Origin: Peribacillus frigoritolerans
Lineage (GTDB): Bacteria > Bacillota > Bacilli > Bacillales > DSM-1321
Length of the DNA: 64,000 nt
Reading direction: 5' to 3'
NCBI GenBank assembly: GCA_030562215.1
Contig: JAUPFL010000001.1
Coordinates: 434,001-498,000 of the forward strand
Shown: positions 3,694 to 50,917 of the stretch, piece after piece
Layout: each line of letters begins with the position of its first letter
How positions within the stretch are numbered: the first letter of the stretch is position 1
Translations under genes and position numbers: made by a program
Notes under the pieces: generated by a model
Told to the model about the DNA's origin: nothing
What the model saw: only the letters and a program-made list of their open reading frames with translations
Database searches by the model: none

Positions 3694-3899
3694 ATATAAC
3701 TACCCCTCCTCACCAGAGCCATTTCTTTACCAGGATGCTACTCTGATACCCTGCCCACACTAGTTATAACTAGTAAATTTTCACAGTGGTAATATGTTGC
3801 TTTCCACAAGTGATAAGAGGATAATCGTACTCCTTCTGCTTAATTTGGACTGTTTCCAACATATCGAACCCGGAAAAGTGATAGCCTTTACATCTTTAT

Positions 3900-6744: not shown

Positions 6745-6760
6745 TATAAGCGCTTTCATA
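6745..6760 (-). promoter_or_regulatory. cre-like box upstream of permease
   Basis: On the minus strand ATGAAAGCGCTTATA matches WTGNAANCGNWNNCW except at the last C. It lies 20 bases before the permease start codon, a position where CcpA would block transcription or initiation. Confidence 0.4.
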
Positions 6761-18410: not shown

Positions 18411-18526
18411 CCCATCACCTCCACTTTTTTATCCTATGTCTCGGATATGGAAAAATACTCCGTTTATTAACAAAATCTTCATATGGAGTACACGTCCTAT
18501 CAATAATACAGCCCTATACTTAAGTA

Positions 18527-18626
18527 AGGCTGGATAGCACGCGTGGCTATCATGGTATTTGGCGAAGGCGGGGCCAATACTTTCCTTATACATATAAAAA
18601 AGGCGGCACACATTGTGCCGTCTTTT
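18527..18626 (+). ncRNA. Candidate small RNA, copy A of a two-hairpin element
   Basis: A TATACT box at 18515-18520 is followed seven bases later by a two-hairpin element (18528-18581). Helix 1 pairs GATAGC (18533-18538) with GCTATC (18546-18551); helix 2 pairs GTATTTGGC (18555-18563) with GCCAATAC (18573-18580) leaving one bulged T. A terminator at 18597-18626 closes a transcript of about 100 nt. A second copy at 29.8 kb has the same layout with compensatory stem changes. No good -35 box is seen for this copy. Family unknown to me. Confidence 0.5.
18597..18626. terminator. Bidirectional terminator (candidate RNA and DUF1292 gene)
   Basis: AAGGCGGCAC (18600-18609) pairs with GTGCCGTCTT (18615-18624) with A and T tracts on both sides. 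Confidence 0.85.
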
Positions 18627-18632
18627 ATCTTG

Positions 18633-18901
18633 TCATTCTTTCGCTTCAAATGCCGCTTCAAACGCCAATGATACCTTCTCGAATTCTTCATCCGATTCGA
18701 TATCGAGCAGTTCACCTTCGCCTTCGACCCTAAAAAGAAAATATCGATATCTTCATCTGTATCCTCTTCAATATCTTCAAGCAAACCTACTGCAACATAT
18801 TCCGTTCCTTCTACATCCAATGATCCTAAAACCTCAACCTCATGGCCTTCATCACTGTCATCAGTAAGGGTGAAAACTTCACCTTCACGAATTTTTCCCA
18901 T
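18633..18901 (-). pseudogene. DUF1292 family protein (YrzB-like), one frameshift
   Basis: Small, very acidic protein of about 89 residues: the opening GEVFTLTDDSDEGHEVEVLG and YVAVGLLEDIEEDTDEDIDIFF match the DUF1292 pattern. After about codon 55 the frame changes near 18730-18735; the alternative frame gives RVEGEGELLDIESDEEFEKV and stops at 18633 just before the terminator, the normal end of this family. If not repaired, translation runs on to 18500 through the terminator. AGGAGAGGT precedes ATG 18901. Function unknown. Confidence 0.8.
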
Positions 18902-21468: not shown

Positions 21469-21495
21469 GGAGCCCTTGTTTTTAACAAGGGCTCC
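21469..21495 (+). terminator. Terminator after alkaline phosphatase gene (first of two near-identical hairpins)
   Basis: GGAGCCCTTGTT pairs with AACAAGGGCTCC. Almost the same hairpin recurs at 22054-22080. Confidence 0.8.
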
Positions 21496-21585
21496 GACCG
21501 TTTATCAACTCCTTATCCTCCCTACGGTCCGGTAACGTTGACAGACACCATAAGTTAGCTTTCTACATGAAGAAAGGATTTTTTT

Positions 21586-22415: not shown

Positions 22416-23583
22416 CTATAAACTATTCACAATTCGTTCCGCTGCCTGTCTTGCTCCCGATATATTCCTGGATATCGGTCCCATTTCAAGTTCAGCCAAT
22501 GCTCCCGTGACATATAAACCAGGTCCCCACTGCAACGACTGCGATACGATTGGATAACCACATTCCGCGCAGCGTAAATCATGCGACCGGATGACTGGCA
22601 TCAGCCAATCCTTCCCTGGCATTGATGACTTAAAGCCGGTCGCTAAAAGGATCGTCCCCGTTTGTTGAATGACCTTTTCGTTTTTATCCCTAAGGCTGAT
22701 ATGCCCATCCCTCCACACAGCGTTTATCACTTCATCATCCATGACACGCAATAATCCCTGTTTAACCTGATTCATCAGCGCTTTATGTAAGTCAGGTGGG
22801 ATGGATCCCTTATTACGGGCCTGGATAATGGTCTCGCGTCTTTTTGAAAGCTGGATATAGCACGGAAAGGTCGCTGTTTTTTCGGCCCCAACCAACCAGG
22901 ATCACTGTCGAAATCATGAATTCTAAAATGATGCCGCTTCAGAACCGTTACATCATGGGGATAGATTTTACTCAGCTTTAAAGCGAGATGGACAGAAGAT
23001 ATGCCGCCCCCAATGATCGTGATGGGTCCTTGTAATTGTGTCAGGTCCGGAATATTTTCATCAAATATGTGGTAAATCGGACCCCCATGCTCTTGTTTGA
23101 ATTGCCGTGCCCATTCAGGCCAATAAGGCTGTTCGCCAATACCAATTGAAATCACAAGTTTTTGTCCCTCAAGCCGTCGCTTGTTTTGCAATTGGATTTC
23201 CCAGCCCTGTCCCGTTTTGCAGGCAGAGATGACTTCCCTTGCACCCATGCCTGCTTAATGGATAAATCATCAGCCAAGTGAATACAATGTTCATTGAAGG
23301 ATTTTAGGGATGGCCGCTTATATTGGCCGTAAAAGTTATTTTTCCAGTCTGCCTTCTCCACATACTTCTGCAGGCTGAAGGGATTCACATCCAGATGGTG
23401 TACGGATGGAGAACGTAAATATGGCATTGAAATGACTTCCGTACAATGCTTCCATCTTGCTAATGGTTCTTCATTTCTATCCACAATCGCCAGCTGGTCC
23501 ACCGTCGTTTTTCCTGACTTAAGTAAAAATGCAGCCATCGTCATACCTTGAATGCCTCCGCCAATAATGATCCATTCCAACAT
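22416..23583 (-). pseudogene. FAD/NAD(P)-binding oxidoreductase of unknown role in Zur cluster, two frameshifts
   Basis: A flavoprotein of about 390 residues with two dinucleotide-binding motifs, IIIGGGIQGM at the N-terminus and ITIIGGGISSVHLAL in the middle, and the FAD closing motif ILLATGFKSSMPG. Its layout recalls SidA/IucD-like amine hydroxylases and related monooxygenases, but the exact family is not clear. A CAECGYPIV segment adds a CxxC near the end. One G is missing near 23250 and one A in the run 22877-22882; both repairs give continuous protein. A Zur box (23616-23638) lies just before its start, so it is expected to be made under zinc limitation. Confidence 0.75.
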
Positions 23584-28322: not shown

Positions 28323-29483
28323 CTATTCTTTCTCTACAACTAAACATTCCAAGGCACGGGCCGCATTCACTCTCGCCACCTCGATTGAATCGGCAGACGA
28401 CAGGGCGACCGCAACCCTTCTACCTGCCTTTGTAACAGGTTTTCCGAAAAGGCGCACTTGTGTATTAGGTAAAGCCAAGGCCTGTTCAACACCGACTATT
28501 GAATATTCCGATAACTCATCTTGCGCTTTTAATGGACGGCTGGCACCCGGGCTGATCAGCTTGATTTCCGGGATGGGGAACCCTAGAATCGCCCTGATAT
28601 GAAGGGCAAACTCGGACAAATTCTGTGTCACCAATGTCACTAACCCCGTATCATGCGGACGTGGGGAAACTTCACTGAAATAGACTTTATCCCCTGAGAG
28701 GAAAAGCTCTACCCCGAATAATCCATACCCGCCAAGTTCACCCGTAATGGCATGTGCAATTCTTTTCGCTTCCATTATTTGCGCTTCTGTCATTTTATGC
28801 GGCTGCCAGGATTCAATATAATCCCCGCCCTGCTGAATGTGACCGATGGGGGCACAAAACATGGTACCATTTACGGTCCGGACAGTAAGCAGCGTGATTT
28901 CCGAATCAAAACGGATAAATTCTTCAATGATCACCCGTCCATTTTGAACCCGGCCTCCTTCCATCGCGATTTTCCAGCAATCCTCCAGGTCATCTTCCGT
29001 CCGGCACACACTTTGCCCTTTACCGGAAGAACTCATCAGCGGTTTGACTACATTGGGAAAACCAACTTCCTTGGCAGCTTGGACAAATTCTTCATAAGTA
29101 TTTGCGAATTTGTAGGCTGCTGTCGGAATCTCCAGAGTTTCAGAAGCCAACCTCCTGATTCCTTCACGATCCATAGTCAATTTAGCCGCTCTTGCCGTAG
29201 GAATGACATGAAAGCCTTCCTCTTCCAACTTGACTAATTCGGATGTGGCGATGGCTTCGATTTCCGGTACAATCAAATCGGGTCGTTCTTTCTCTACAAC
29301 TCCCCTTAGTTGTTCCGCATCAAGCATATCGATCACATAACTGCGATGAGCGACTTGCATGGCAGGGGCATGTTCATAGCGGTCTACAGCAACGGTCTCC
29401 ACTCCAAGTCGCTGAGCTTCAAGTATGACCTCTTTCCCCAATTCACCCGAGCCCAATAATAAAATCTTTTTCGATTTATACAT
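28323..29483 (-). CDS. purT: Formate-dependent phosphoribosylglycinamide formyltransferase
   Basis: ATP-grasp enzyme of 386 residues that makes formyl-GAR from GAR, formate and ATP in purine synthesis. N-terminal [17 protein letters not shown]-grasp segments [16 protein letters not shown] and [31 protein letters not shown] and the metal-binding [16 protein letters not shown] are intact. Unfused to other purine genes and monocistronic. An inverted repeat at 29532-29557 lies in its promoter region and may be a PurR-type site. Confidence 0.95.
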
Positions 29484-29557: not shown

Positions 29558-29768
29558 ATTTGCACTTATAATTATATCGATATATATAAATAAACCTATC
29601 CATTTAAGTTTTTTCACAAGCCATCTCGTAAGAGACCAGTTCACTGTAGCCTCCCATTCAGCATTTATGACGGAGGAAATACATCTTGCAAAGAATCGAT
29701 AATCCCCATTACCTTCTGCTGAAAAGGAGAGCATGAAGCGAATGTCGAAATTTGCATTACGATTATTT

Positions 29769-29797
29769 TTGAAAATGTAAGCGCTTTCTATTATAAT
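29769..29797 (+). promoter_or_regulatory. SigA promoter with perfect cre box
   Basis: TTGAAA (29769-29774), 17-base spacer, TATAAT (29792-29797). The spacer holds ATGTAAGCGCTTTCT (29775-29789), matching WTGNAANCGNWNNCW at every fixed position, so CcpA should repress the downstream RNA when glucose is present. Confidence 0.75.
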
Positions 29798-29803
29798 GGA
29801 ATT

Positions 29804-30016
29804 AGGTTGGATGGCATGCGTGGCCGTCACAGTATCTGGCGTAGGTGGGGCCGATACTAGCGCTAAAGAAGTTAAACTTCTTTACCGTAAAACTATTAGA
29901 ATTCCTTTTGGTAGGGGCTGCAATATCACTGGGACATGGAAAATGTCCGTTAATTTCAGGCTAAAAAGCGAGTTTATCATGCAATCGATAAGTAAAGCAT
30001 AACTTTACTTATTTTT
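29804..30016 (+). ncRNA. Candidate CcpA-controlled small RNA, copy B of the two-hairpin element
   Basis: Transcription from the promoter above would begin at about 29804. The element follows at once (29805-29858): helix 1 GATGGC (29810-29815) with GCCGTC (29823-29828); helix 2 GTATCTGGC (29832-29840) with GCCGATAC (29850-29857). Compared with copy A at 18.5 kb, an A-T pair becomes G-C and two A-U pairs become G-U, so pairing is kept. A terminator at 29988-30016 would end a transcript near 210 nt. No start codon with a ribosome site was found inside. Function unknown. Confidence 0.6.
29988..30016 (+). terminator. Terminator of the candidate small RNA
   Basis: ATAAGTAAAG (29988-29997) and CTTTACTTAT (30003-30012) with TTTT after it; no protein gene on this strand ends here. 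Confidence 0.85.
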
Positions 30017-30058
30017 GCAGCAGCCCTCATCGTTTCAAGTCTAATAGTTTAAAAGCCT

Positions 30059-30096
30059 AAAAAGCTCTACCCCATGGAAACGGAGTTGAGCTTTTT
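30059..30096. terminator. Terminator after the M14 peptidase gene
   Basis: AAAAAGCTC and GAGCTTTTT flank the loop; A and T tracts on both sides. Confidence 0.7.
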
Positions 30097-30110: not shown

Positions 30111-31302
30111 TCACATATATAACCCTGCCAAGAAAATCCCAAGTGACTTCTCATATATCTCATCGAATTGTGATATCGGGAGGGGATTCGTCCCTTTGCC
30201 CAGCTCCACTGTAAACCCCGGCCTGCGCCAATCCTGAATGTACCAATCCTTATAACCTGCGTAACTACCGGCGGATTTGACAGGCTCATATCCACTGACC
30301 CTCGCAAACTCATTGACTATCGTTTCCGACTCGGGTGGTTCCAAACCTTCAAACCCCCAATAAATGACCTCCCTTGGGTGTGGAACGCAAGGACTTTGCC
30401 AAAATCACTCCTTTTTGTCAACTCTGACATTGCAATAGCCTCTGGCTGTGTAAGCGGCCCTTCCCCTGGATAATTTGCCGGACCTGGCTCCGTTACATTA
30501 TTGCGGGCTTGTTCCAATTCCCATTTGGCGGGAAATTGATCATTTAGATCCACCCCATTAATATTGGCTTTCCAGCCAGAGAAGTCTTCGCTGCCATTAT
30601 TCCATTCGATGAGCCGTCCTCTCAATGACTCATCTGCAGGCGGGCCTTTCAGAACCAACTCCACTCCGTCCGGATTCACCATTGGGACGATCGACAGCAT
30701 CGACTGTTGATAAAAAGGAAACATAGCCAGACCGCGGATGTCAGCCTGATTCGTGATTGCGAGTAAATAATCATTTAAAAAGGTCATGATCACAGGCGTC
30801 GTTATCCACTCATTCGCATGAAAGGAACCATTATAGTGAACTCGTTTGTTGCCATTTCCAATCAGAACCTCGGGAATATCCCTTTCAAGCACCGAGTCCC
30901 CGATGGGGAGGTTTTTATAAATGGATAGATTGTTTTCAAACGTCTAACATCGGTCATCATCGTCTCATAATCATATTCCCGATTTCCTTGAATTAGCCTC
31001 CACGTAATCCTTAATGGCACAGAAATTATCTGACCAACTTGCAGGGCATTCGGGTTGAGATTGGGATTAACTAAAAATAGTGCATCCAATGAAAGATTGC
31101 GTGACCTGGCAATTGCCCATAACGAATCACCTTGCTTAATACTATAGCCGGTCGTCGTAAAGCCAGGAATTTTGATTTGTTGGCCAATCATAAGTGCAAG
31201 TGGATCAATCCCACTATTGGAATCAATGATAAGTTGGTAATTCACCTTGAATAATTGGCTATAATACCACAAGGAATCATTTTGCCGCACAAAAACGTCC
31301 AT
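30111..31302 (-). pseudogene. LysM-M14 peptidase (gamma-D-glutamyl-diamino acid endopeptidase type), two frameshifts
   Basis: About 397 residues. Two N-terminal LysM repeats (RQNDSLWYYSQLFKV, KQGDSLWAIARSRNLSLDAL) bind peptidoglycan; then a zinc carboxypeptidase domain with SFHANEWITTPV (His and Glu ligands), GVDLNDQFPAKW, LAFHTQGR and catalytic Glu in FTVELGKGTNP. This layout is that of endopeptidase I/YqgT, which cuts D-Glu to diaminopimelate bonds in cell wall peptides, especially in spore formers. Frames change near 30885 and 30345. ATG 31302 follows GAGGAGGT. There is no signal peptide. Confidence 0.88.
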
Positions 31303-31362
31303 ACTGCACCTCCTCTTAACCAAATGTATGCTGATTCGATTTAATTATTGCCAACGCAAAGG

Positions 31363-31894: not shown

Positions 31895-33348
31895 TTACAC
31901 TTCTTGCGGTACAGATAAGCCTAAACCTTCGGCTATGCGCGTTCCGTATTCCGGATCGGCTTTGTAGAAATGACCGATTTGACGAAGCTTGATTTCCTCT
32001 AATTCCACAGGTTTCATTGCGCCCACGATCGTGTCAACAAGGCGAGTTTTCTCTTCGGCACTTAATAGACGGTATAAGTCACCTGCTTGAGTGTAGTGGT
32101 CATCACTATTATGACCAACTTGTGCAGCTTGCCCAGTCACCTCGAAAGGAGTGACTTTATTTTCCGTTGATTCGGCAGGGCCGCCAAAACTATTCGGCTC
32201 ATAATAAACAGATCCCTTGCCATTGTCATCTGCACGCATGAATCCATCACGCTGATAGTTGTTCGCTTCCACTTTCGGACGGTTAACCGGAAGCTGGTTA
32301 TGATTCGAGCCCACACGGTAACGGTGTGCATCTCCGTATGCGAATAGACGTCCTTGTAGCATCTTGTCCGGGGAAGCCTCAATTCCCGGTACGAATGTTC
32401 CAGGTGAGAATGTGGCTTGCTCTACTTCAGCAAAGTAGTTTTCAGGATTTCTGTTCAATACCATACGGCCAAGCTCAATCAGCGGATAATCTTTTTGAGA
32501 CCATACCTTCGTCACATCGAATGGATCGAAACGGTATGTATCCGCATCTTCCAGAGGCATGATCTGAACATATAATTTCCATGCAGGGAAGTCCCCTTTT
32601 TCAATGGCATTGAAAAGATCTTCCGTATGGTAATCAGGATTTTCACCTGCTAGTTTTGCAGCTAGATCCACATCAAGGTTTTTGATGCCCTGTTCTGTTT
32701 TGAAGTGGTATTTCACCCAAACGCCTTTTCCTTCAGCATTCACCCATTTAAATGTGTGGCTTCCGAAACCATGTGTATGACGAAGTGTGGCAGGAATGCC
32801 CCGGTCGGACATCAGGATCGTCACTTGGTGCAGAGATTCCGGTGAATGTGACCAGAAATCCCAAACAGCCGTAGGGTTTTTCAAATGCGTTTTAGGATCT
32901 CTTTTTGTGTATGGATGAAGTCGGGGAATTTAATCGCATCGCGAATAAAGAATACAGGCGTATTATTACCGACGATATCATAGTTTCCTTCTTCCGTGTA
33001 GAATTTAACAGCAAATCCACGCGGGTCACGGACTGTATCTGCAGAACCCAATTCACCTGCAACAGTGGAGAAACGGATAAACAGATCTGTCTTCTTGCCC
33101 ACGCCATTGAAAAGTTTAGCTTTCGTGTACTGAGAAAGGTCGTTCGTTACTTCGAAAGTACCGTATGCACCGGCACCCTTCGCATGAACCACACGTTCAG
33201 GCACACGTTCACGGTTGAAGTGGGCTAGCTTTTCCAATAAGTGTACATCTTGAATGAGCACAGGGCCGCGTTCGCCGGCAGTGATCGAGTTTTGATTATC
33301 TCCAACTGGTGCTCCCCAGCTTGTTGTAAGGTTTTTCTTATTCGACAT
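31895..33348 (-). pseudogene. katA: Vegetative catalase, one frameshift
   Basis: Clade 3 heme catalase of about 484 residues. Catalytic His in [12 protein letters not shown], Asn in GNNTPVFF, heme-ligand Tyr in [12 protein letters not shown], and the NADPH region are all present. One A is missing in the run at 32902-32906; repair gives [20 protein letters not shown]. Monocistronic, with a PerR box upstream (33420-33434), which fits peroxide induction as in B. subtilis katA. Almost surely functional in the organism. Confidence 0.95.
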
Positions 33349-34907: not shown

Positions 34908-35119
34908 GAGCGGACTTCTGAAATCACGGAGTTTTTAAATGAAAAGACTGCAGCCAAACGTGTTTTTAAAACAAGATCTGCTTTCATGGTTTACTTTTTA
35001 TATTGGATGAAACCTATATGGGATTGAAGAAATTTGCGACACTCCTGCCGAATAACTGGCTAGCCGAGACCCCACAGGCGTTTGCTTTGATGCGGCTTGG
35101 CAGACAGTCGGCGGAAAGG
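34908..35119 (+). repeat. Family B intergenic repeat, tandem unit 1 (212 bp)
   Basis: Starts GAGCGGACTTCTGAAATCA and includes GACTGCAGCCAAACG, AAACAAGATCTGCTTTCA, GAAGAAATTTGCGACACTCC, GGCTAGCCGAGACCCCACAG and GGCAGACAGTCGGCGG. The second unit begins exactly 212 bases later. Confidence 0.92.
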
Positions 35120-35331
35120 GAGCGGATTTATGAAATCAACGGACTTTTTAAATGAAAAGACTGCAGCCAAACGTGTTTTTAAAACAAGATCTGCTTTCAG
35201 GTTTACTTTTTAAATTGGATGAAACCTATATGGGATGGAAGAAATTTGCGACACTCCTGCCGAATAACTGGCTAGCCGAGACCCCACAGGCGTTTGCTTT
35301 GATGCGGCTTGGCAGACAGTCGGCGGAAAGG
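35120..35331 (+). repeat. Family B intergenic repeat, tandem unit 2 (212 bp)
   Basis: Nearly identical to unit 1 with a handful of substitutions and small indels, followed at 35332 by the first 20 or so bases of a third unit. A chance frame inside (35152-35442) is not a gene. Confidence 0.92.
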
Positions 35332-35484
35332 GAGCGGATTTATGAAATCACGGGGTCCTTTCCATTCTGGGGGAATACATATCGTATTCCTCTTTTTTGT
35401 GACAATTCTGCAAACATATCACTGAAATTCATGAAATTTTAGTATAATTGACTTTTAGTAAAGTGCCTTCAGGAGGAGTTATTC

Positions 35485-37353: not shown

Positions 37354-37368
37354 TAGTAAGCGTTTTCA
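37354..37368 (+). promoter_or_regulatory. cre-like box upstream of second permease
   Basis: TAGTAAGCGTTTTCA agrees with the cre consensus except at the second position. It is 150 bases upstream of the permease start, in otherwise featureless AT-rich DNA. Confidence 0.45.
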
Positions 37369-48875: not shown

Positions 48876-50917
48876 TATTTCACCCCAGTTTCAATGATTA
48901 AATTTCCATAAGCATCAACAGATAATTTTTGTCCTTCCATAATGACAGTGGAAGCGGATTGCTCCTCGACAATTGCCGGACCGCTCAGTTCATGTCCTCT
49001 GGCCAGTTTTGTCCGTTCGTATACAGGGGTCCGGCACCATCCGATTTGATTGAAAAACACATTTCGTTCTTCAATTTTTGCATCCTCCACGGCTGATTCA
49101 CTTTCTTTCATTTCAGAAATGACTGGTTTGTCCACTATACCGAAACTGGTGAGATGCAAATTAACAATTTCAATTGCACTTTCCGGTAAGTTGAACGAAT
49201 ATACTTGTTCATGCATTTGATGGAATTGGCTGATGATGTCCGCTATAACCTGATCATTCCATTCTCCATTCGGGACAGGAACTTTCACCGTATGCTCTTG
49301 ACCGATATACCGTAAATCTGCGAATCGGCTGAATACAATCTTCCGTCATCCACATTCTCTTTAGCAAATTGTCTTTTGGAATTAAACTCCATGTCCTCCC
49401 ATTTCAGATTCATTTCCATTAAATCCAATGTATTCAGCAATTTTATATAGGTATGGATATAATCATGCCGTAAATCTGTCATCAACATGCCCCAAGCTGA
49501 GAAAACCGAGGAAGCCAATGGGATCACCACTTTTTCACTCCAAGGTCCCTAGCAAGTTCTGCCGCATGCATTGGGCCTCCTCCGCCGAATGCCAACAATG
49601 TAAAATCTTGTGGATCATATCCTTTTCTCACTGAAATAAGCTTTAACGCGTTAAGCATATTTGAATTCGCGATGTCGATGATTCCGAGAGCCCCTTCTTC
49701 AGTGGATGTTTGAAATGGCTTAGCGACATTTTCATCAATTGCCGCTTTTACTCTTTCCATGTCCACTTCGTAATCGAAGTTTTTCCCTGAAAGCCTCCCA
49801 ACAAACAAATTTGCATCAGTCGTAGTCGGCAGTGTCCCGCCTTGTCCGTATGCCACAGGGCCTGGTAATGAGCCTGCCGATTGGGGCCCCACTTTCAAAG
49901 AGCCGATCTCATCAATCCAAGCGATGGAACCGCCGCCATTTCCAATTTCAACAATATCGACGACTGGCACTTTTATCGGATATCCTGCTGTTTTTTCCGA
50001 CTTTTCAATATAATAGTTCGTGGACACTTTCACTTCGCCGTCACTAATTAATGAACACTTTGCAGTTGTTCCGCCTATATCAAAAGCGATGATATTCTCT
50101 TCACCGATCATTTTCCCTAAAATGGCGGCTCCGAAAATTCCAGCAACCGGTCCTGACTCAACCATGTTGATTGGAATGTTTTTCGCATTTTCGAATGTCG
50201 TGACCCCTCCATTGGATTGCATGATGTACCGGTTCTCTTTGATGTTAAAATCACTTAACTTATTAGAAAGGTTGTCAATGTATGAATTGGCAGTCGGTTT
50301 AACGTATGCATTCAGGACTGTCGTATTCGTCCTTTCATACTCACGCCATTCTTTAGTGATATCACTGGAAACGCTGACAGATACTTCAGGCCACAAATCC
50401 CCCACAATTTTAAGCGCTTTCAATTCATGCTCAGGATTCAGGTAAGAATGCAAAAAGCAAATGGCAATTGCTTCAACCTGTTCTTCTTTAAAATACTCTA
50501 TCGCTTTTTCAATATCTTCTCGAACTAACGAAGTAACGACCTTTCCTTTGTAATCCAAACGTTCTGTCACTTCTAAACGCAAATGCCTTTCCACAAAGGC
50601 TTCTGGTTTTTTATATTTAAAATTATATAAATCAGGACGGTTTCCCCGAGCAATTTCAAGACATCTTTAGTTCCTTTTGTCGTAAGTAATCCTACTTTTA
50701 CACCTTTTCTTTCGGTTAATGCATTAATCACAACGGTAGATCCATGAATGAACATGTCGATACCATCTACGCTGACCCCACTTTGTTTAATTACGTCAAT
50801 TACTCCATTCTCAAACTGGGGCGGAGTTGTGTGTGATTTGGCATAACCAAATTTCCCATTGTCATCCACATATACTAAATCAGTGAAAGTTCCACCGATA
50901 TCTGTTGCTATCCTCAT
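48875..50917 (-). pseudogene. Hydantoinase/oxoprolinase subunit A, three frameshifts
   Basis: About 680 residues, HyuA family, the ATP-binding subunit. ATPase motif ATDIGGTFTDLVYVD at the start, VVINALTERKGVKVGLLTTK, the second ATP motif IAFDIGGTTAKCSLI, GNGGGSIAWID, FGGGGPMHAAELARDLG. Frame changes near 50665, 49530 and 49340 are each repaired by one base, for example LEIARGNRPDLYNF. ATG 50917 follows AAGGAGG. First gene of the operon, directly behind the triple half-site operator. Acetone carboxylase beta subunits are relatives, but no gamma subunit is present, favouring the hydantoinase/oxoprolinase role. Confidence 0.9.

Follow-up and report, generated by a model that had tools for sequence, protein, structure and literature searches.

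The locus described here as copy B probably represents a new family of starvation-controlled, trans-acting small RNAs (sRNAs) that bind a conserved partner through their G-rich loops. It lies in a 64,000-nt stretch of Peribacillus frigoritolerans DNA, referred to below as the window. The promoter, operator sites, structure, terminators and spread of the family are observed in the DNA; that the locus is transcribed, that CcpA, PhoP and Spo0A regulate the family and that a partner is titrated are inferences, there being no expression data and no partner found. The features of copy B are:

29743-29749, + strand: Spo0A-box-like heptamer TGTCGAA, 67 nt 5' of stem 1, as in 42/89 of the cre-class promoters described below
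29769-29774, + strand: -35 box TTGAAA, from the promoter scan
29776-29789, + strand: cre box (predicted CcpA operator) in the promoter spacer, by consensus match and kept in the family
29792-29797, + strand: -10 box TATAAT, from the promoter scan and the family -10 tallies
29810-29828, + strand: hairpin 1, loop AUGCGUG (family mostly ANNNGUG), covarying structure
29832-29857, + strand: hairpin 2, loop region GCGUAGGUGGGG (family form GCGWAGGNGGRG), covarying structure
29860-29887, + strand: hairpin 3, present in Peribacillus copy B orthologues, not in copies A, C and D of this genome
29890-29922, + strand: left arm of a conserved inverted repeat (partner 30016-30050)
29987-30016, + strand: A+T-rich terminator-like hairpin with T5 (-9.1 kcal/mol), the terminator of the preliminary description
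30016-30050, + strand: right arm of the conserved inverted repeat, past the first terminator
30059-30096, + strand: second, stronger terminator-like hairpin (-13.1 kcal/mol), preceded by an A run and followed by a T run

The promoter (TTGAAA-17-TATAAT, 29769-29797) agrees with the sigma-A consensus at 11/12 positions and ranks first among the 31 promoter-like sites found between 24000 and 36000, a 12-kb scan that yielded no more sites in total than its shuffles. Its spacer carries TGTAAGCGCTTTCT at 29776-29789, a 14/14 match to TGWAARCGYTWWCW, assumed for scoring to be the cre consensus. A preliminary description of the window had claimed both a consensus promoter and a cre box in its spacer, and both were recovered, the latter conserved in relatives. 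With at most one mismatch, the whole window contains 11 cre matches at six sites (both strands counted) against 1.1 expected, and only 29776-29789 and 37355-37368 match without mismatch; the other cre-like sites are 6745-6758, 37355-37368, 50409-50422, 394-407 and 3879-3892. The features of copy B can be taken as more than chance because relatives carry the same unit. With a cre box at a repressing position that is kept in relatives, copy B would qualify as a putative member of the CcpA regulon. Transcription is predicted to start at about 29804. The unit is flanked on one side by purT (28323-29483, minus strand, ATP-grasp and PurT_C domains) and on the other by a minus-strand region encoding LysM and peptidase M14 domains. 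Several genes of the window are split over two or three frames, at 22416-23583, 30111-31323 and 31895-33348 (what looks like an FAD-dependent enzyme, an M14 peptidase carrying LysM, and what looks like a catalase), which, together with the 87% completeness of the assembly, suggests indel errors. A tandem repeat of ~212 nt at 35003-35442 repeats a short coding-like stretch (DETYMG...).

The two-hairpin element claimed near +1 was found at the hairpin 1 and 2 positions listed above, and the fold of 29803-30016 is more stable than expected (z = -3.8). The 3' end is less certain. The terminator proposed earlier is a real hairpin followed by T5, yet it is weak and A+T-rich and is absent from the terminator-prediction list. 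Since a stronger hairpin follows downstream and the inverted repeat spans the first terminator, the end is placed at either ~30016 or ~30097, and the predicted RNA may measure ~213 or ~294 nt. The T5 of copy B is a T6 in 13/15 aligned orthologues. The downstream hairpin may also serve the convergent gene; a minus-strand entry of the terminator list falls inside 30059-30096. Between the hairpins and the terminator, no convincing plus-strand gene was found in the list of open reading frames (ORFs). A 68-aa ORF (29796-30002) starts inside the -10 box, later start codons in the transcript have SD matches of 4/6 at most, and in 16 aligned sequences (the window plus 15 orthologues) the spacing of conserved anchors does not keep a frame. 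The view that the unit contains no protein gene is therefore upheld.

Copy B had been regarded as a single unit; the unit itself is supported, but it belongs to a large family present in multiple copies. This Peribacillus genome holds four copies of the element. Copy A was detected as a 55-base match of 80% identity at 18527-18581, and two further copies are located at C1:84024-84086 and C1:2838667-2838728. The features of copy A are:

18467-18505, + strand: four PhoP-type half-sites with 11-nt spacing (TTAACA, TTCATA, TACACG, TCAATA)
18515-18520, + strand: -10 box TATACT; a good -35 box was not seen
18533-18580, + strand: two-hairpin element (18533-18551 and 18555-18580)
18596-18626, + strand: strong terminator directly after the element (-18.2 kcal/mol)

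The half-sites TACACG and TCAATA are imperfect, and all four are in phase. A sigma F/G-like promoter was considered for copy A and dropped, the 11-nt repeats being the better explanation. Within ~500 nt downstream, none of the four copies is followed by a convincing co-directional gene; the sole frame in this range (84 aa, 18613-18867) follows copy A and is antisense to a minus-strand frame.

A covariance model (R1) built from these four copies matched 35/43 genomes of the same family at an E-value of 0.01, with up to eight copies each. Within Peribacillus, 32/36 genomes matched at this threshold, one of them only at E 0.008, and the remaining four had no copy at E 0.01; one genome of the same family outside Peribacillus matched only at E 0.0096. 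At E 0.001, R1 matched 47/299 genomes (19/116 genera) in a draw from the order, and a second model (R2) matched 31/398 genomes (19/146 genera) in a draw from the class. Both counts are lower bounds because the search filters were strict. A pattern scan of named genomes returned at least 118 stretches, and all 80 titled stretches among the matches listed bear Bacilli names. The genera among these matches include Peribacillus, Neobacillus, Mesobacillus, Cytobacillus, Niallia, Priestia, Lederbergia, Fredinandcohnia, Metabacillus, Domibacillus, Alkalihalobacillus, Shouchella, Lysinibacillus, Paenibacillus, Alicyclobacillus and other Bacillus. In addition, 55 plasmid records carry the element (45 Priestia, eight Peribacillus, one Niallia and one named Arthrobacter citreus); the last, the only non-Bacilli name among them, is perhaps mislabelled. 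Phage records gave no match, and viral contigs one. In eight further genomes, five of them recognised as B. subtilis group by FsrA and RoxS over the cut-off, R2 found no convincing member: with E allowed up to 10, 7/8 had merely weak matches, and the best score, in one genome, was 20 bits (E 0.04). Two family members stand in tandem ~160 nt apart at locus L130 (273-333 and 496-555), the first with an unusual hairpin 1.

The structure was evaluated in an alignment of the window and 96 of ~240 loci, chosen to reduce redundancy, which gave 99 matches (97 distinct). Base pairing is kept in 97.7% of cells, and 12/14 base pairs show double-sided changes (181 cells). None of 500 shuffles reached any of five covariation measures, and structures slid along the alignment attained at most 52.1% paired and 28 double-sided cells, although at a slide of +3 ten pairs still showed some double-sided change (48% paired). 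The alignment was fitted to the scored structure, which favours that structure; an earlier alignment fitted to another helix-2 register gave 96.9% paired. A hairpin 2 register shifted by one was rejected, with only 38% of helix-2 cells paired. The loops barely vary in the family, being GUG in loop 1 and GCGWAGGNGGRG in loop 2: loop 1 ends in GUG in 99/99 aligned rows, and loop 2 reads G-W-A-GG-N-GG-R, with C for W in two. This invariance is partly built in, as many instances were fetched by a pattern fixing those letters. Among the 52 rows that came from model-found loci or the window itself, GUG was present in 52/52 and loop 2 had the same form with two exceptions.

Upstream regions were compared in 156 distinct instances with enough flank; these sequences are related and do not represent independent events, and the pattern used for fetching them spans the element only, not the promoter. 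A cre box of 13-14/14 occurs within 60 nt upstream in 89/156 instances, whereas none of the 156 control stretches (the next 60 nt upstream) reaches 13/14. Among the matches listed, it is nearly always positioned at -33 to -35 from stem 1, in the spacer between a -35 box at about -41 and a -10 box at about -18. Among the tallies listed for this class, the best -10 box falls at -17 to -19 in 83/89 and the best -35 box at -40 to -42 in 77/89. Where cre is lacking, 38/67 instances display three half-sites of the form TTHAYA (presumably the PhoP consensus) with 11-nt spacing (≥15/18), an arrangement found in 2.9% of mononucleotide shuffles and 1/89 of the cre class. In this PhoP-repeat class the -10 box lies near -19 and a good -35 box is missing; PhoP-activated promoters typically lack one. 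The direct repeats upstream of the -10 box would make the copy A class putative members of the PhoP regulon. Among the variants listed, the loop variant GGAG characterizes 24/38 of the PhoP-repeat class and 1/89 of the cre class. The Spo0A box TGTCGAA is present in 42/89 cre-class promoters (1.3% when shuffled), where 42/44 of the matches are located at -66 to -68, in 0/38 of the PhoP-repeat class and in 5/29 of the promoters that belong to neither class (29/156). Control by CcpA and PhoP is supported by these motifs and control by Spo0A is probable, regulation itself being an inference. Taken together, covariation across orders and conserved operators indicate selection on the RNA as well as on its control.

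The end of the unit is similarly marked. A terminator-like hairpin was identified within ~300 nt downstream in 94/156 instances against 54/468 shuffled sequences, 87/94 of them within 190 nt of the hairpin 2 start; for 62/156 no terminator was found. In some members (e.g. L061) a T run directly follows hairpin 2. For the plasmid copies, 64 records were matched by a 461-base Priestia plasmid query; as this query starts at the cre box, it does not extend to the upstream boundary. Among the 40 matches listed, 18 end at query base 116 or 117, 19 span at least 80% and run through a 62-codon ORF, and three end elsewhere. Since the T run of the terminator in the query ends at base 117, conservation stops where the RNA should stop. 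With the cre counts and the covariation, this lends support, on sequence evidence, to the preliminary proposal of a stand-alone CcpA-controlled small RNA. The 62-codon ORF, conserved after the Priestia plasmid unit (L240:2567-2755 and L242:2714-2902), encodes a small hydrophobic protein. Short hydrophobic frames also lie close downstream of the element in the Alicyclobacillus-like loci L084 and L088, and a link with small membrane peptides is possible.

The suggestion that copy B is an undescribed regulator is in keeping with Rfam 15, in which no family matches copy B or six further loci; RsaOG (RsaI) is presumably included in that library. At E up to 10, copy B hits only four eukaryotic families, below the cut-off and on the minus strand. 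At gathering scores, the only matches in the window are a SAM riboswitch (RF00162, 82 bits, 1751-1852, + strand) and a Bacillus-plasmid RNA (RF01691, 36 bits, 21492-21545, - strand), both away from copy B. The latter, between copies A and B on a contig of 3.7 Mb, carries a loop rich in G and is followed by a terminator-like hairpin. The family is perhaps missing from Rfam because the most-studied B. subtilis group has no convincing match. Literature on RosA/RsaI, CcpA with PhoP or Spo0A, Peribacillus and B. megaterium sRNAs yielded no description among the matches listed, as far as titles and abstract openings reveal, and a search with the loop sequence found nothing.

Multi-copy sRNA families such as Qrr and LhrC have several paralogues with one conserved payload per genome; the paralogues of the new family differ in that they appear wired to different starvation regulators. 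By analogy, RosA and RsaI are closer functional counterparts of copy B than SR1, although it is not recognisably either. RosA (S345) of B. subtilis is described as a CcpA-repressed RNA sponge of RoxS and FsrA, a stand-alone sRNA of ~225 nt with a sigma-A promoter, a cre and G-rich regions (PMC8216469). Its cre occupies -1 to +12, whereas that of copy B lies in the promoter spacer. The new family also differs in having several paralogues with different operators and in lacking convincing members in B. subtilis-group genomes; the RosA sequence was not compared directly, and a cre scan of 40 kb at its estimated place in a B. subtilis-group genome did not locate it. RsaI (RsaOG) of S. aureus is likewise a CcpA-controlled stand-alone sRNA with G-rich regions, but it is described as conserved in Staphylococcus and not in Bacilli (PMC8216469); it also has a C-rich mRNA-binding region, and no Rfam family matched copy B. 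SR1 of B. subtilis comprises 205 nt, is sugar-repressed by CcpN and less by CcpA, has its cre ~260 bp upstream and encodes SR1P (PMC8464778), and copy B shows neither of these last two features. The absence of an SD-led frame and the differently placed cre rule out identity with SR1 (SR1P was not compared), as stated in the preliminary description. RoxS/RsaE, FsrA and CsfG are likewise small RNAs of Firmicutes with links to metabolism or sporulation, but they carry C-rich regions and thus have the opposite polarity to the G-rich new family.

These C-rich RNAs were examined as partners. This genome encodes three RoxS/RsaE-like RNAs, one over the cut-off (83 bits) and two below it (62 and 34 bits); the 62- and 83-bit genes are in tandem (G000:C1:2337381-2337911) and the third lies at C1:2260178. 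FsrA did not exceed its cut-off. CsfG corresponds to the strand opposite the ylbH family (PMC3574147), which has a 103-bit match here. Loop base pairing, put forward earlier as a route to targets, gave no partner among the RoxS-like RNAs, CsfG and the 16S 3' end of this genome: neither the loops (25 tests) nor the whole RNA (15 tests) paired with them better than shuffled sequences. The lowest result (5/400, for pairing of the 5' leader to the third RoxS-like RNA) is expectable from 25 tests. CsfG and the 16S 3' end were discarded as partners on these grounds.

A RoxS sponge of the RosA/RsaI kind is accordingly improbable. CcpA-type control, a stand-alone gene and G-rich unpaired regions are shared with those RNAs as described in PMC8216469, and RoxS-like RNAs are present in this genome. 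Nevertheless, nothing resembles the 15 consecutive bases through which RosA pairs with RoxS (PMC8464778), and no long complementarity to RoxS was found in the new family. Co-occurrence points the same way: in searches that both used strict filters, RsaE was matched in 7/31 element-bearing genomes of the class draw, where ~9 are expected from 113/398 overall, so the family is not enriched with RoxS/RsaE. Ordinary base pairing, with the loops repressing or activating mRNAs, is the commonest action of such RNAs, and the loops are exposed in a covarying structure. This reading is unlikely but has to be kept in mind: loops that are near-invariant across orders would be unusual for targets drifting in step, and they are G-rich, not C-rich like RoxS, FsrA and CsfG, although no transcriptome-wide target search was performed.

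The remaining alternatives question whether the unit is a trans-acting RNA at all. A compact, aptamer-like two-hairpin element at +1 could act in cis on a downstream gene, as a leader or riboswitch, and the match continues through the 62-codon ORF in at least 19/64 plasmid records. A leader is nonetheless very improbable, given that no convincing co-directional gene lies within ~500 nt of any of the four copies of this genome, the terminators found mostly follow closely after hairpin 2, and other plasmids carry the sRNA unit without the 62-codon ORF. A small-peptide-coding role comparable to SR1/SR1P or the RosA sORF is scarcely credible: a frame of 60-63 codons does run through the copy B transcript, but SD matches are poor, anchor spacing shifts by non-multiples of three, and start codons directly behind loop 2 are less frequent than in a control window (28/156 vs 54/156). 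Several copies per genome and the 55 plasmid records would also be compatible with ends or cargo of a mobile element, conserved merely through recent spread. Covariation in both helices over different orders and conserved operators leave this with next to no plausibility, and neither a transposase nor a shared terminal repeat was noticed at the four loci of this genome, without a systematic test.

The favoured reading, a starvation-controlled RNA acting in trans on one conserved partner, can be put as follows. When sugar is plentiful, CcpA bound to the spacer cre would block RNA polymerase at copy B; when carbon is low, the promoter would open, possibly aided by Spo0A at the upstream box. Paralogues like copy A would produce the same payload in phosphate starvation, an expectation resting on PhoP-type repeats in place of cre. 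The two-hairpin element at the 5' end would form the payload; its G-rich loops, which hardly vary, may capture either an RNA rich in C or an RNA-binding protein and so leave this partner less active when cells starve. Capture of a single conserved partner is inferred to be most likely because near-identical loops occur in several copies and are held across orders, a pattern easier to reconcile with one conserved RNA or protein than with base pairing to a multitude of mRNAs.

Among Firmicutes, few trans-acting sRNAs with a wide distribution are known, and RsaE has been described as the sole example other than 6S RNA shared by S. aureus and B. subtilis (PMC4409812). The new family covers many genera, and its near-invariant loops provide a precise bait for finding the partner. 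The promoter motifs suggest one RNA as a meeting point of carbon, phosphate and sporulation control. It is conceivable, with confidence just short of even, that the family constitutes an ancient starvation module of spore-forming Bacilli, in which a fixed two-hairpin payload, multiplied within genomes and onto plasmids and directed at one deeply conserved partner, has been wired, copy by copy, to CcpA, PhoP and Spo0A.
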